Shown piece after piece: positions 53,634 through 60,036 of a stretch of 60,036 nt of DNA. The notes beneath the pieces were generated by a model that saw only the letters and a program-made list of their open reading frames with translations, was not told the DNA's origin and ran no database searches. Each line of letters starts with the position of its first letter. Position 1 is the stretch's first letter. This DNA is from Candidatus Zixiibacteriota bacterium (GTDB lineage Bacteria; Zixibacteria; MSB-5A5; GN15; FEB-12): the NCBI GenBank assembly GCA_019038695.1, contig JAHOYZ010000014.1, positions 1 to 60,036 of the forward strand, in the 5' to 3' direction. The translations under genes and the position numbers were made by a program.

Positions 53634-53772
53634 AAGGAGACACGGCGGGTGGCATCGGCAACACCGCCGGGTGCCATGCTCAAACTCGTTTGGCAGGCAT
53701 CGCCTGGTTGCATGATTCTTCCGAGGACGTCTTCGTCATGCTGAGCGGAGTCGAAGCATGGCGGCAATCAAT

Positions 53773-53804
53773 CCGGCCCAAACCAGTTTGAGCCGGCCAC
53801 CCAG
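53773..53804. repeat. CCGGCCCAAAC-type palindromic repeat, copy 1
   Basis: CCGGCCCAAAC...GTTTG...GCCGGCCAC; a near copy (27-28 of 32 positions) is at 54604-54635, so it is an interspersed element rather than part of a gene. Confidence 0.7.
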
Positions 53805-54174: not shown

Positions 54175-54465
54175 ATGAATAGACAACCTGCTGTATACAT
54201 TTTGGCAAGCAAACGAAATGGTACGCTTTATATCGGTGTGACTTCAAACCTCATAAAGAGGATATGGGAACACAAAAATAATATGTTAGAAGGATTTACC
54301 AAACGTTACAATGTTCATCAACTGGTTTGGTTTGAATTACACGGAAGTATGGAATCCGCTATTACTCGGGAGAAGCGATTGAAAGATTGGAAACGAAAAT
54401 GGAAACTGGAGTTGATTGAGAGCGGTAATCCAAATTGGCAGGATTTGTATGATAGCATTGTTTGA
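54175..54465 (+). CDS. Single-domain GIY-YIG nuclease
   Basis: 96 residues: VYI (7-9) and YIG (19-21) motifs, catalytic Arg29 (IKRIWEHK), Tyr45, and Glu66 (AITREKRLKDWKR). UvrC N-terminal/UPF0213 type without a DNA-binding partner domain. Base composition is more AT-rich than neighbours. The start has GGAA about nine nt upstream. Inverted REP-like palindromes flank it, the right one beginning at the base after the stop codon, which suggests a small mobile unit. Confidence 0.85.
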   Translation: MNRQPAVYILASKRNGTLYIGVTSNLIKRIWEHKNNMLEGFTKRYNVHQLVWFELHGSMESAITREKRLKDWKRKWKLELIESGNPNWQDLYDSIV

Positions 54466-54492
54466 CTGGATTCCGGCGTGCGCCGGAATGAC
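54466..54492. repeat. REP-like palindrome abutting the GIY-YIG stop codon
   Basis: 27 nt, CTGGATTCCGGCG...CGCCGGAATGAC; inverted partner of 54113-54139. Confidence 0.85.
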
Positions 54493-54517
54493 AGAGACAG
54501 GAGAACCAAATGACCTT

Positions 54518-54545: not shown

Positions 54546-54560
54546 TCCTGGATACGAAGA

Positions 54561-54587
54561 CTGGATTCCGGCGTTCGCCGGAATGAC
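54561..54587. repeat. REP-like palindrome, further copy
   Basis: 27 nt, CTGGATTCCGGCG...CGCCGGAATGAC, differing from 54466-54492 by one base at the centre. Confidence 0.85.
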
Positions 54588-54603
54588 AAAAAGAAGGATT
54601 CTT

Positions 54604-54635
54604 CCGGCCCAAACAAGTTTGTGCCGGCCACACAG
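54604..54635. repeat. CCGGCCCAAAC-type palindromic repeat, copy 2
   Basis: Second copy of the element at 53773-53804; palindromic core CAAACAAGTTTG. The two copies bracket the GIY-YIG zone in the same orientation. Confidence 0.7.
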
Positions 54636-54725: not shown

Positions 54726-57482
54726 ATGAAACGCATCGTTCTATTACAGGTTGTCGCGGCCCTGGCACTGGTTGCTCTCACGGCGTCGGTCGTGGTTGCT
54801 GACTGGCATCTCTATGACTGCGAGTACACCCAGCAGGGTTTTCTGAGTGACTCTGATGGCAATGCGCTGGACACTACGGTGTCAATCACCTACGCCATCT
54901 ATGATGATTCCACGTCGGGCGCCCAGCTCTGGATAGAGAATCACCCGACCGTCACCGTTGACTCCGGCCAATTCTCAGTACGGATGGGAAGTATCATTCC
55001 GATACCGGACAGCGCTGTCGCCAGAGGCATAGGTTGGGGGGATACTGCGAGACGCTGGCTGCAAGTCACTATTGACGGCGAAGATATAGAACCCCGCACC
55101 GAGATCGGTGCCGTCCCCCGGGCGCATTTCGCACAGGGCGTGGACGGGCATATCGTTACCGAGCCGTCCTTGATGTACATCCCGGACACAGCGGGGAACC
55201 CAGCCATTGAACTCAGCTCTGATGCCGACGACGGCACCGTGGTAGCCTATAATCGGTTCGAACGCACCAGTGGCGACCTGGTGTCGTCGATTACACAAGC
55301 CTGTAGCGACGCCGCGGCTTTGGTTAATTTTGTCTTCTTCAACACCATGACTGACGACACGAGCGGTGTGAGCATCGTGGTAGACAGCAACGTAGCGTTG
55401 CTCGATGTTACTTACAAGACAACAACAGCTACGATGGGATATGGTATTGCTGTCGACAAGGACTGCGCAGCCATGAGCTTTGTTGCTGGCGACAACAGCA
55501 GTGTGAATATTGTTGTCGATGATATGGGGCCGACCCTTTCATTAGTCGGTTCCGGTCGGGCAGATTCTGTTTCAATTACGAATCTAGGCATAACTTTTCC
55601 CGATGGAAGTTCTCTAACAACTGCCAGTGTAGAAGGAAGCAGTTGTTGGGAATGCCCCGGCACCAGCAACTACACTTACCTGACGGACATCGACGACAGT
55701 GTGGGGATTGGCACTGACACCCCCAGTGAGAAGCTGGAAGTGGTCGGCAATCTGCGTGTTACCGGCCAGGCCAACATCGGTATCTATAATGGTAGTCCCG
55801 GTCAAGGCGCTTTTGTAGCTGGCGGTGGAAACGATGCTACAGGGGATTCGTCAGTTGTTGTCGGTGGTAACAGCAACTCGGCTGATCACTTCTACTCGGC
55901 GGTTGTCGGAGGGTATATGAATGCTGCCCGATATGATTTCGCAATCGTTGGAGGTGGCATATACGACACTGTAAATGCGCTGTATGGAGGTGTATTCTCC
56001 GGTTACTCGAACCTGGCCGGCAATGGGGCCGCCGATACGGCTGCCACAGTAGCCGGTGGCTTTAACAACACAGCCAGTGCCAGGTATTCGTACATTGGAG
56101 GTGGAATGGGCAATACCGCGAGTGGACATTACAGCACTGTCAGCGGCGGTGGCGGCACGAATCCTGTAGACGGAAATGTGGCTTCAGGGATGCAGTCTAC
56201 CGTGGCAGGTGGCATCGGCAACACCGCCACCAACAGCTACGCTTCTATCGGCGGAGGTATTCGTAACATAGCCAGCGGCAGCGACGCTACTATTGCCGGC
56301 GGGTGGCAGAACACCGCCAGCATGAATGCTACTACCGTAGGTGGTGGTGGTAATAACACTGCCTCGGGCTGGGGTGCTACGGTATCAGGCGGTGACGAAA
56401 ACGAAGCCAGCGCTCCCCATTCAACTGTGAGTGGCGGTCGCTACAACGTGGCATCGGGCGAGTTTGCAGGAATTGTGAGCGGCGACTCGAACACTTGTGC
56501 CGGTGATTACTCGGCTATTGGCGGGGGGCAAAATAACTTTGCCGAAAATGCCCACTCCACTGTGGGGGGCGGGAAATATGACACCGCTCTGGCTTTCTTT
56601 TCGGGTGTATTCTCCGGCTGCAACAATGTCGCTGGAGACGACGGCAATGATACTGGTGCGGTAATACTGGGTGGTGTCAAAAACTCCGTGACAGCACCTT
56701 ATTCTGCCATAGTCGGTGGATTCGAGAATATAGTCAGTGAAAGCTATTCGATCATTGGGGGCGGTTACCTGGATACTGTTAGCGGTATGTATAGCGGTAT
56801 CCTCGGCGGATACAAGAACAGTGTCGCCGGTAATTTCTCGGTGATTCCCGGAGGTCAATATAATACGATATCGTCAACGGTTGATTACTCTATGGCTTTC
56901 GGCTGCGAAGTATGCGTTGATAACGATTTTCGGGTGATCTTCTTTGAGGCAGACAGTTCCGGTCGCGTTGGTATCAACCGTGACTGCGATAACGGAGTCA
57001 ACTATCCGATTCACGTCGGAACCGACGTAACGAACGGCAACGGCGCCTACCTGACTGAGGGCGGAGTGTGGACTCTTGGCACCGGCAAGACGTCACGAGG
57101 TGGTATTGAAACACTCGACGGACAGGATGTACTTGGGAGGATAGACCAACTACCAGCCGAAGCCTGGACGTATGCTGGAACCGACGAGCGGCACATTTTC
57201 CCCAGCACCGAGAGTTTCCTTGCCCAATTTGATGTTGGTGATCAGTCGGGTTCTACGGGCCTTGCGGCAGCCGATATGGCCGGGGTAGCGTTGATCGGTG
57301 TACAGGAATTGTATCGCATGGTTCGTCAGCAGCAGGAGCTGGCGCAAACACTTGAGGAGAAAACGGACGAGATAGCACAACTGCGGGCCGAGATGGCTCA
57401 GTTAACCACGCTGGTTGAAATGATACTGGCTCAACAGCACAATTCCGATGGTAGTAACAGTGGACTGGCTTCTAACCGGTAA
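54726..57482 (+). CDS. Large secreted protein with YadA-head-type repeats and S74-like C-terminal chaperone region
   Basis: 918 residues, strong AGGAGG site. Signal peptide (1-26). A beta domain follows (about 27-135: YTQQGFLSDSDGNALDTTVS...ITYAIYDDSTSG, ending EPRTEIGAVPRAHFAQ), then a less repetitive section. From about 355 to 725 there are some twenty units of 14-16 residues on the pattern (S/A)xVxGGxxNxASG, as in left-handed beta-roll heads of trimeric adhesins. The C-terminal 110 residues resemble peptidase-S74 intramolecular chaperones (LDGQDVLGRIDQLPAEAWTY, DERHIFPSTESFLAQF, MAGVALIGVQELYRMV) and end in a coiled coil. The SDxxxK autocleavage motif is not seen and there is no outer-membrane anchor. 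Probable trimeric surface fibre. Confidence 0.75.
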   Translation: MKRIVLLQVVAALALVALTASVVVADWHLYDCEYTQQGFLSDSDGNALDTTVSITYAIYDDSTSGAQLWIENHPTVTVDSGQFSVRMGSIIPIPDSAVARGIGWGDTARRWLQVTIDGEDIEPRTEIGAVPRAHFAQGVDGHIVTEPSLMYIPDTAGNPAIELSSDADDGTVVAYNRFERTSGDLVSSITQACSDAAALVNFVFFNTMTDDTSGVSIVVDSNVALLDVTYKTTTATMGYGIAVDKDCAAMSFVAGDNSSVNIVVDDMGPTLSLVGSGRADSVSITNLGITFPDGSSLTTASVEGSSCWECPGTSNYTYLTDIDDSVGIGTDTPSEKLEVVGNLRVTGQANIGIYNGSPGQGAFVAGGGNDATGDSSVVVGGNSNSADHFYSAVVGGYMNAARYDFAIVGGGIYDTVNALYGGVFSGYSNLAGNGAADTAATVAGGFNNTASARYSYIGGGMGNTASGHYSTVSGGGGTNPVDGNVASGMQSTVAGGIGNTATNSYASIGGGIRNIASGSDATIAGGWQNTASMNATTVGGGGNNTASGWGATVSGGDENEASAPHSTVSGGRYNVASGEFAGIVSGDSNTCAGDYSAIGGGQNNFAENAHSTVGGGKYDTALAFFSGVFSGCNNVAGDDGNDTGAVILGGVKNSVTAPYSAIVGGFENIVSESYSIIGGGYLDTVSGMYSGILGGYKNSVAGNFSVIPGGQYNTISSTVDYSMAFGCEVCVDNDFRVIFFEADSSGRVGINRDCDNGVNYPIHVGTDVTNGNGAYLTEGGVWTLGTGKTSRGGIETLDGQDVLGRIDQLPAEAWTYAGTDERHIFPSTESFLAQFDVGDQSGSTGLAAADMAGVALIGVQELYRMVRQQQELAQTLEEKTDEIAQLRAEMAQLTTLVEMILAQQHNSDGSNSGLASNR

Positions 57483-57494
57483 CCGCAGGAGAAT

Positions 57495-58031
57495 ATGAAG
57501 ATGAAAAAGAGAATCATCATATCGGCCCTGACGGTGGTGGCGCTGTTGTTTGTCATTCACACCGTGATTGGCAGTTCGCCGTTCCCACAGCAGCCAGTGC
57601 CCGAGCGGCAGGATATGCAACTGTCACCGGCCGGGTCGTCAGAGAACTTCGAGTTGGACTGGGAGGTGTTGTCATGCGGTGCGACCGATGGCAGCTCAGC
57701 CAGTTTCAGCATGCTTGGCACCCTGGGTCAGCCCTTCACGGGTTACGGTGAGTCGGTGAGCTTTCAACTCAGCCACGGCTTCTGGCAGGAGCCTGGTGAC
57801 GACGGCACCTGTTGCAACCATGACGGCATTCGCGGCAACGTCGATGACGTCGGCGATATCAATATTGCTGATCTGACCTACCTTGTGGCCTATTTGTTCA
57901 CTGGAGGTCCACCTCCTCAGTGCTTGGAGGAAACTGACGTAAACGGCGATGGCGAGATCAATATAGCTGATTTGACCTATCTGGTTTCGTACTTATTCAC
58001 TGGTGGCCCACCACCGGTGTCGTGTCCGTAG
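57495..58031 (+). CDS. Small secreted protein with C-terminal dockerin-like pair
   Basis: 178 residues. Signal peptide (MKMKKRIIISALTVVALLFV); the start could be this ATG or the next, two codons on. A short domain (FELDWEVLSCGATDGSSASF...GTLGQPFTGYGESVSFQLSHGFW) of the kind found repeatedly in such secreted proteins is followed by GNVDDVGDINIADLTYLV and a second DVNGDGEINIADLTYLVSYL repeat ending TGGPPPVSCP. 12 nt after the YadA-like gene, so likely co-transcribed. Function unknown. Confidence 0.75.
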   Translation: MKMKKRIIISALTVVALLFVIHTVIGSSPFPQQPVPERQDMQLSPAGSSENFELDWEVLSCGATDGSSASFSMLGTLGQPFTGYGESVSFQLSHGFWQEPGDDGTCCNHDGIRGNVDDVGDINIADLTYLVAYLFTGGPPPQCLEETDVNGDGEINIADLTYLVSYLFTGGPPPVSCP

Positions 58032-58194
58032 AAGCTGCGGGTAGCTAAAATAGATTTGAATGGCCACCTCGCCTACAAGACTGTGGAGTTGCCCATAACG
58101 GAGGAAGGTATTAGTTTATAGGGCGGAACCCCCTGGTGGTTCCGCCAGGCATTGCTTGGTTTCTGGCAGGAGCGCTAAGGGCTCCTGCCCTACA
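57940..58194 (+). repeat. 255-nt cassette repeat, copy 1
   Basis: Covers the last dockerin repeat, stop codon and nearly the whole intergenic region to the next gene. Identical to 59782-60036 except A/T at 57965/59807 (a synonymous Ile codon). Contains two hairpins with 9-bp stems (58122-58146 and 58165-58189). Confidence 0.95.
58122..58189 (+). repeat. Twin 9-bp/7-nt hairpins in the cassette spacer
   Basis: GGCGGAACC...GGTTCCGCC (58122-58146) and GGCAGGAGC...GCTCCTGCC (58165-58189), both perfect 9-bp stems with 7-nt loops. No T-tract follows either. Second copies are at 59964-59988 and 60007-60031. Could act as mRNA stabilisers, attenuators or recombination points. Confidence 0.85.
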
Positions 58195-58217
58195 AGATTG
58201 ACTTGCAGGAGATCACG

Positions 58218-59873
58218 ATGAGAAGTTTATTCATTTCCTTTCTGACCATTATTGCTCTGCTGGCTGTAGGTGTGGCCGGCACAACCGCCAATCCGCTCCG
58301 ACTGATGACCACTGCTGAGCAGGAGAATGCTGAAATCAACTTGATACTGGATGATACTGAGAACTATCCAATTGAAGCCTCTGACCTGGTTAAGCAATTT
58401 GAGACTCTGTGGAACAGTGGCAGCTACGAACCCGCGCTTGACCTATTCGATCAACTGACAACGCTAGTCGGTATGGAAAATATCGATGTTGTCACCAGAT
58501 ACCGTACCCACATAACTACTGTGCAGCCCGGCGGGCGGTATACGGAAGTCAACTTCTGCCCATACGATTCCGTTTATGACGTCGAATTGTGTGTCAGTTC
58601 CGAGGATCCAAACATACTCTTCGCATCGGTACTCCATGAAGGTGATGGCTACGTTTGCCAGCTAAAAATGTTCTTCTCTGTTGACGGCGGGAGCAGTTGG
58701 GATTTGACGTCTTCACTCGGATCTGGTGGATGGCATGAATCGATTTCGATGACCTACATTAATGGTTACTGCTATGTTGCCAAACAAACCAGCAGCAACC
58801 GCCTGCGTCTGTTTCGATATAGTAATTCGGATGGCAGCTTGGTCGACTTCCCGGAGGCAGGCACCTACGTAACGATTGCAGCGGTGGATCTGAAGGAGAT
58901 GGTCATTTCTACGGATGAGGACGCGCAACCGTACTTGAGCGTGTTCGGGATGAACTCGGACGGAGACCTTTTTCTCGGCACAGGTTTTGAACCCTTCGAT
59001 GTGTCGGACTGGGGAAGCGGATTCCTGCCGGAAGTCGACGATATCAGCCATGGTTTGGATGGTCTTTACACGGTAGGAGGCACCTACGATAGACTCATCT
59101 CATACTACAGTGAGAGCGATCAACTTAAGCTAGTGTCGTACAGCATGCTTCCTCCTGGTTGGACCGTTCAGAAGACATGGGATATGTATAATATATCCTC
59201 ATCCTGGGTGACATCGCTCAGTTCATACGGAAACAGCATCGCGTGTGTGGCGGATGTCTTCCGCCTTAGCACCGGTCTTAGTGAATGCGTGGTAGCGACC
59301 AACAGGCTGGGCTATTTCGAGTCAGCCTACTTTATGACCCCATATTATAACACTGACTCGATTAAGACTTACACGCCTGCAATTGACATGCGAGGTGGAG
59401 GCGCCGTTGGAGTCTGCTACTTCATGTACAACAGCTCTGCAGGTATGTGGAGCGAGAGGTTTGCCATCGCGCCATTTGATGATTTGGAAGATGTTGAAAC
59501 ACTGCGGGACCGCCCCCAGATGAGTTATACCGACCTATATATGAACCAGGACATCAGGCCGGACTTGAGCTACATTGGCTCCTCCAATTTCGGAATAGTC
59601 TGGGTCGCGGGACACACCAACGACAAAGGCTACTTCACTCGGATGGGCTGTTGTGTCCCCCCCATTCGCGGTAATGTCGACTACGAATTGCCCGATGAAA
59701 TCAACATTGCTGATCTGACCTACCTTGTGTCCTATCTGTTCACTGGAGGATCAGAGCCACCGTGTATGGAAGAAGCTGATATAAACGGCGATGGCGAGAT
59801 CAATATTGCTGATTTGACCTATCTGGTTTCGTACTTATTCACTGGTGGCCCACCACCGGTGTCGTGTCCGTAG
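58218..59873 (+). CDS. Secreted BNR-like beta-propeller protein with dockerin-like pair
   Basis: About 551 residues from the ATG at 58218 (AGGAG seven nt upstream). Signal peptide (MRSLFISFLTIIALLAVGVA), a helical segment, then a likely beta-propeller with a BNR-type Asp box (FFSVDGGSSWD near 160) and many aromatic beta strands. The tail is a dockerin-like pair: INIADLTYLVSYLFTGG and INGDGEINIADLTYLVSY. BNR folds occur in sialidases and related sugar hydrolases, but a full catalytic set is not evident. Shares its last dockerin repeat at DNA level with the preceding gene. Confidence 0.72.
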   Translation: MRSLFISFLTIIALLAVGVAGTTANPLRLMTTAEQENAEINLILDDTENYPIEASDLVKQFETLWNSGSYEPALDLFDQLTTLVGMENIDVVTRYRTHITTVQPGGRYTEVNFCPYDSVYDVELCVSSEDPNILFASVLHEGDGYVCQLKMFFSVDGGSSWDLTSSLGSGGWHESISMTYINGYCYVAKQTSSNRLRLFRYSNSDGSLVDFPEAGTYVTIAAVDLKEMVISTDEDAQPYLSVFGMNSDGDLFLGTGFEPFDVSDWGSGFLPEVDDISHGLDGLYTVGGTYDRLISYYSESDQLKLVSYSMLPPGWTVQKTWDMYNISSSWVTSLSSYGNSIACVADVFRLSTGLSECVVATNRLGYFESAYFMTPYYNTDSIKTYTPAIDMRGGGAVGVCYFMYNSSAGMWSERFAIAPFDDLEDVETLRDRPQMSYTDLYMNQDIRPDLSYIGSSNFGIVWVAGHTNDKGYFTRMGCCVPPIRGNVDYELPDEINIADLTYLVSYLFTGGSEPPCMEEADINGDGEINIADLTYLVSYLFTGGPPPVSCP

Positions 59874-60036
59874 AAGCTGCGGGTAGCTAAAATAGATTTG
59901 AATGGCCACCTCGCCTACAAGACTGTGGAGTTGCCCATAACGGAGGAAGGTATTAGTTTATAGGGCGGAACCCCCTGGTGGTTCCGCCAGGCATTGCTTG
60001 GTTTCTGGCAGGAGCGCTAAGGGCTCCTGCCCTACA
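59782..60036 (+). repeat. 255-nt cassette repeat, copy 2 (continues to window edge)
   Basis: Same sequence as 57940-58194 at a constant 1842-nt offset, still matching at the last base of the window, so a further gene with a start near 60060 is expected. Confidence 0.95.

Follow-up and report, generated by a model that had tools for sequence, protein, structure and literature searches.

Near-identical dockerin ends in neighbouring genes of a Candidatus Zixiibacteriota bacterium point to probable short-tract gene conversion

Two neighbouring dockerin genes and their shared block

The window analysed here is the whole of contig C14 (60,036 nucleotides) from the 3.28-Mb, 58-contig assembly of a Candidatus Zixiibacteriota bacterium (G000). 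The aspartyl-tRNA synthetase of this genome has its closest counterpart in a Zixibacteria genome (57%); a scan with the gene 2 payload gave no match to place the bacterium. At the right end of the contig lie two adjacent genes for exported proteins, with the following features:

57495–58031, + strand: gene 1, exported protein of 178 aa with a signal-peptide-like N-terminus, a small payload and a C-terminal dockerin (open reading frame; Pfam Dockerin_1)
57828–58028, + strand: dockerin of gene 1, two EF-hand-like units (Pfam, translation)
57864–57907, + strand: high-identity patch in dockerin unit 1, compared with 59706–59749 and followed by a linker of 59% identity
57940–58194, + strand: block copy 1 (255 nt: dockerin end, stop codon and 163 nt of spacer)
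58032–58118, + strand (second copy 59874–59960): decayed dockerin-type 3′UTR, hairpin degenerate and T-run lost, homologous to the terminator UTR of dockerin genes on C12, C54, C19 and C7
58119–58194, + strand (second copy 59961–60036): GTAG-type REP doublet of two palindromes, a dispersed repeat whose outer edge coincides with the block's right-hand limit
58195–58217, + strand: gene 2 leader with a GCAGGAG ribosome-binding site, absent from the second copy (sequence comparison)
58218–59873, + strand: gene 2, exported protein of 551 aa with a payload unlike that of gene 1 and a C-terminal dockerin (open reading frame, Pfam)
59664–59870, + strand: dockerin of gene 2 (Pfam, sequence)
59782–60036, + strand: block copy 2 (255 nt), running to the last base of C14, where 55 nt overlap with contig C11

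Both C-termini exceed the cut-off for Pfam Dockerin_1 (PF00404), with scores of 30.2 bits for gene 1 and 24.9 bits for gene 2 against 22.9, and each carries two tandem EF-hand-like units (GDINIADLTYLVAYLF and DVNGDGEINIADLTYLVSYLF in translation). In the PDB, the dockerin matches clostridial cellulosomal dockerins. The payloads that precede the dockerins, about 110 aa long in gene 1 and about 480 aa in gene 2, are unrelated, as the first-pass annotation had noted, with no BLASTP match between them and a positional identity upstream of the block of about 13–30%, falling to chance further up. A Pfam scan of both genes found no recognised enzyme domain. The payload of gene 2 has relatives in four of 40 related genomes and one paralogue on C25, has no match in the one same-genus genome compared or in a PDB sequence search, and gave an unusable single-sequence structure prediction (pLDDT 35).

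Upstream, positions 54726–57482 encode a 918-aa protein with many GG..N.A repeats, a coiled-coil-like C-terminus and a weak, below cut-off match to LbR_Ice_bind; it ends 12 nt before gene 1 and is therefore probably co-transcribed with it. The non-coding stretch further upstream holds dispersed palindromic or short repeats (53772–53804 and 54603–54635; 54464–54493 and 54559–54588), and another, diverged dockerin C-terminus is encoded at the opposite end of the contig (1673–1846, − strand).

At an offset of 1842 nt, 57940–58194 and 59782–60036 agree at 254 of 255 positions, with the sole mismatch at 57965/59807, confirming the near-identical block described previously. Its coding part comprises the last 92 nt including the stop codon, and belongs to a dockerin type that is matched more than 100 times across the genome. 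The extent of the match has to be amended: it takes in the dockerin end and the stop codon but not the entire spacer, covering 163 of 186 nt and leaving the 23 nt that hold the ribosome-binding site (58195–58217) outside. Likewise, in place of a single sharp identity step below a diverged upstream repeat, the region is a mosaic, with 42 of 44 positions identical over 57864–57907 and 19 of 32 over 57908–57939, before the 254 of 255 of the block.

The block is a composite of the last dockerin unit with its stop codon, 87 nt of decayed terminator UTR and a 76-nt GTAG-type REP doublet. A genome search recovers 58032–58118 in full just at the two C14 copies, with the first ~30 nt aligning to the UTR of other dockerin genes; the UTR of the relative on C54 forms a strong intrinsic terminator, and every place returned by the intact UTR as a genome query follows a dockerin gene. 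A terminator search of the C14 spacer found none, the hairpin being degenerate. The spacer matches no RNA family or riboswitch in Rfam, and folds only mildly better than shuffled sequences (z −2.05). The REP doublet is palindromic, intergenic and present at many other loci in both orientations, also in relatives, and ends in GCCCTAC(A), with another copy starting GTAGGGC. This resembles the GTAG-tagged REPs as outlined in PMC3733652, PMC2817692 and PMC3116915, which share the palindrome doublet, the GCCCTAC/GTAGGGC ends, both orientations and the presence of Y1-type transposases; unlike in those outlines, the doublet here sits inside a longer duplicated block. Two Y1-type transposase genes of G000 lie within about 1 kb of dispersed-repeat matches (C13:2604-2909 with C13:3418-3622; C15:85854-86159 with C15:85759 and C15:86311), suggesting that they are REP-associated transposases. 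The first-pass annotation had proposed a portable tag with a regulatory spacer. The portable part is supported by a dockerin and 3′UTR common to unrelated payloads elsewhere in the genome. The spacer as part of a regulatory module is not supported, its 5′ half being a decayed terminator and its 3′ half a REP doublet that is scattered over many unrelated loci.

Dockerin ends elsewhere in the genome and in relatives

These bacteria typically have about 100 dockerin matches per genome, and G000 has more than 100. Across 2346 dockerin gene pairs, the median identity of the 60 nt that follow the stop codon is 46% and the 99th percentile is 72%; the C14 match, with 163 nt of identical non-coding sequence, is therefore not due to chance. 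Five further genes (C12:197, C54, C19, C12:53278 and C7:310910) share UTRs that are 84–97% identical over the 60 nt after the stop codon, with second dockerin units 75–88% and first units 64–92% identical. Their payloads are unrelated, except for those of the paralogues C12:197 and C54, and the payload on C19 is lost at a contig end. A UTR group on C27, C36 and C53, partly due to dispersed repeats, was left out of this count.

A counterpart of the C14 pair is found in G008, a seven-contig genome from another genus of the same family, in which the adjacent genes C1:676943 and C1:679589 share a perfect 170-nt tract at positions −168 to +2, counted from the end of the stop codon, with payloads lacking similarity and unrelated spacers. 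The run comprises 132 polymorphic sites, compared with a 95% permutation-null maximum of 42. For the coding part of the C14 run alone, 47 polymorphic sites against a 95% null maximum of 52 is not significant; the significance of the C14 pair stems from its identical spacer, as the coding part does not single it out. Other pairs in G000 and G001 that reach significance by permutation are not claimed here, because conserved sites are clustered and the null takes no account of this. The two dockerin ends that resemble each other most belong to immediate neighbours in G000 as well as in G008; such neighbours make up 4 of 2346 pairs in G000 and 3 of 406 in G008 (29 of its about 100 dockerin genes examined), giving a joint chance of about 1e-5. 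Both the C14 and the G008 pair thus present a sharp-edged identity tract between otherwise unlike genes, beyond chance, the pattern by which gene conversion was judged. The earlier proposal of a recent duplication or gene conversion of the C-terminal tag is well supported by these data, recurring as it does in another genus. The adjacent dockerin genes C3:294327 and C3:297445 of G008 display the opposite pattern, with UTRs 84% identical over 60 nt and diverged dockerins (69%).

Each genome has its own consensus tag (EINIADLTYLVAYLFTGG in G000, GIDVADLTYLVAYLFTGG in G001, EIKVADLTYLIAYLFRGG in G008 and AVNILDVSYLINYLYKSG in G027), and in balanced samples 81% of dockerins have their nearest counterpart within their own genome, compared with 25% expected by chance. 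By genome, this proportion ranges from about 50–56% in G001, which belongs to the same genus as G000, to 100% in G027. Among 33 INIADL-type dockerin genes of G000 with unrelated payloads, 53% of codons are shared at identical residues, where codon usage predicts 34%; selection at the protein level would not by itself produce such a rise. Over all pairs with unrelated payloads, observed synonymous sharing exceeds the expectation by a factor of 1.28 in G000 (bootstrap 1.20–1.38), 1.18 in G001, 1.12 in G027 and 1.06 in G008.

How the tags may have come to match

Short-tract gene conversion between neighbouring dockerin genes, as part of a lineage-wide homogenisation of the C-terminal tag, is the reading we favour with moderate confidence. 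The last dockerin unit of one gene, its stop codon and 163 nt downstream would recently have been copied onto the neighbour by ectopic homologous recombination, with the dockerin coding sequence as its anchor, leaving the payloads unaltered. Across the lineage, dockerin ends, sometimes together with the terminator, would swap between genes such that tags stay alike whilst payloads vary. We infer gene conversion, rather than another route, as the copying process; for the G008 pair this is close to a direct reading of the alignment. The known pattern of gene conversion and concerted evolution in repeated domains is similar, with short, sharp-edged identical tracts between neighbouring paralogous segments and homogeneity within genomes, although here the C-terminal tag alone is shared and the remaining protein is unrelated. 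Several findings count against conversion. On its right the C14 block ends in a non-homologous junction, where the REP doublet has its edge, and simple conversion of homologous sequences leaves this unexplained. The coding part of the C14 run is not significant by itself, and same-genome nearest neighbours in G001 reach only 50–56%. Furthermore, co-evolution with a receptor can also give rise to a lineage-specific tag consensus.

As the C14 tract covers the UTR and REP doublet and ends at a non-homologous junction, this pair may instead stem from an older segmental duplication that took in either the 3′ end or a whole gene with later replacement of its payload. In the latter case, a dockerin gene with its 3′UTR and REP doublet would have been duplicated in tandem, with one payload then replaced or diverging very fast, which accounts for the inclusion of the UTR and REP doublet and for the right edge. 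Whole-gene paralogues bearing dockerins are known in the genome (C12:197/C54 and C30/C7:298020). However, the payloads retain no trace of similarity in DNA or protein beside an identity of 254/255, and the G008 pair has no shared spacer; we regard tandem duplication as rather doubtful.

The contig end bears on whether the assembly itself could have produced the match. The last 55 nt of C14 are the first 55 nt of C11, and overlaps of exactly 55 nt join seven pairs of contig ends in the assembly, the signature of a k=55 assembly graph; C14 stops at 60036 because the repeat has two continuations in this graph. The array had been expected to continue past the window, which is not supported: beyond the overlap, C11 carries unrelated sequence and then a gene in convergent orientation that can be recognised as isocitrate dehydrogenase, and a genome search with the block found no third near-identical copy. 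A third dockerin cassette beyond the window was therefore rejected. The simplest path runs from gene 1 through copy 1, gene 2 and copy 2 into C11, with two copies and no long array, whilst the 1842-nt unit is possibly present in higher copy number than printed. Elsewhere, a 55-nt overlap also links the right end of C24 to the left end of C19 (L074, L071), with what appears to be a series of three or more dockerin genes, and the start of C19 within a dockerin indicates that dockerin repeats break this assembly. Bubble removal by metagenome assemblers can wipe out differences, such that two similar but non-identical ends might have been collapsed, or repeat paths misjoined, and copy 2 does terminate exactly at a contig end with the k=55 overlap. 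Against this, the mismatch at 57965/59807 survived assembly, the shared path is entered from a linker unique to gene 2, copy 1 is flanked on both sides, and a similar pattern is seen in the seven-contig G008. An assembly artefact is accordingly judged unlikely, and more so than tandem duplication.

Mobilisation driven by the REP doublet and a transposase, in which the doublet took adjoining dockerin DNA along, has positional support only, from the coincidence of its outer edge with the right edge of the block and from the five Y1-type transposase genes exceeding the Pfam cut-off in the genome, including the two on C13 and C15 described above. REP copies at other loci are found without dockerin DNA, however, and the G008 tract lacks any shared repeat, making this route very improbable. 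Least credible of all, and refuted in large part for the C14 pair and its G008 counterpart, is an absence of recent exchange with strong purifying selection keeping the dockerin and mRNA end alike: dockerin protein sequence is indeed strongly conserved inside each genome, but synonymous sites and the non-coding spacer are identical too, and G000 and G001 dockerins, orthologous ones included, share 37% of codons at identical residues, about the codon-usage expectation.

Putative dockerin partners and a proposed evolution of the tag

Dockerins bind cohesins, as is established for cellulosomes, and the tag described here would dock exported proteins to a common partner. One attachment tag for varied exported proteins, as the first-pass annotation envisaged, is the standard meaning of a dockerin, and fits the data here. 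Like cellulosomal type I dockerins (PF00404), these tags are built from a duplicated EF-hand-like unit and sit at the C-terminal end of exported proteins, with many tagged proteins per genome; unlike them, they accompany no cellulosomal enzyme domain in gene 1 or gene 2, cohesin matches are mostly weak, and binding here is putative. The genome holds four scattered cohesin profile matches, of which one is clear at 40.4 bits, and two cohesin-match proteins on C30 also bear a C-terminal dockerin hit. One of these, L373:3569-6913, combines the 40.4-bit match with its C-terminal dockerin hit and is possibly an adaptor between tags. On C10, L371:3259-8592 encodes a protein of 1777 aa that has Ig-like repeats and, at its C-terminus, a Por_Secre_tail (T9SS type A sorting) over the cut-off; two kinds of C-terminal tag therefore coexist in the genome.

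Cellulosome-like use of dockerins and cohesins has been inferred for Ca. Stygibacter of the uncultured phylum Cloacimonadota, in the relevant passages of PMC8542988, which also cite Peer et al. 2009 for non-cellulosomal dockerins. That system similarly pairs dockerin-tagged exported proteins with cohesin-domain proteins, and a T9SS-type tail occurs here as well; those passages describe presence and inferred assembly rather than tag exchange between genes. Dockerins, REP doublets and gene conversion are each already known. A literature search for dockerins in connection with gene conversion or concerted evolution, with most subscription papers outside its coverage, returned nothing relevant.

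More tentatively, we propose a concerted evolution of the attachment tag, in which, throughout this order of uncultured bacteria, the dockerins of dozens to more than 100 unrelated exported proteins per genome would continually be re-homogenised by gene conversion, sometimes together with the terminator. The tag would then drift with its receptor into lineage-specific dialects, and new payload genes would receive the current tag. Tags are presumably kept alike through binding of a common cohesin-type partner. It is predicted that dockerins of the same genome bind one partner, whereas the dockerins of orthologous proteins from different genera cross-bind poorly. If correct, this would provide a DNA-level mechanism for placing one shared attachment tag on unrelated exported proteins, and would account for the differences in tag sequence between lineages.
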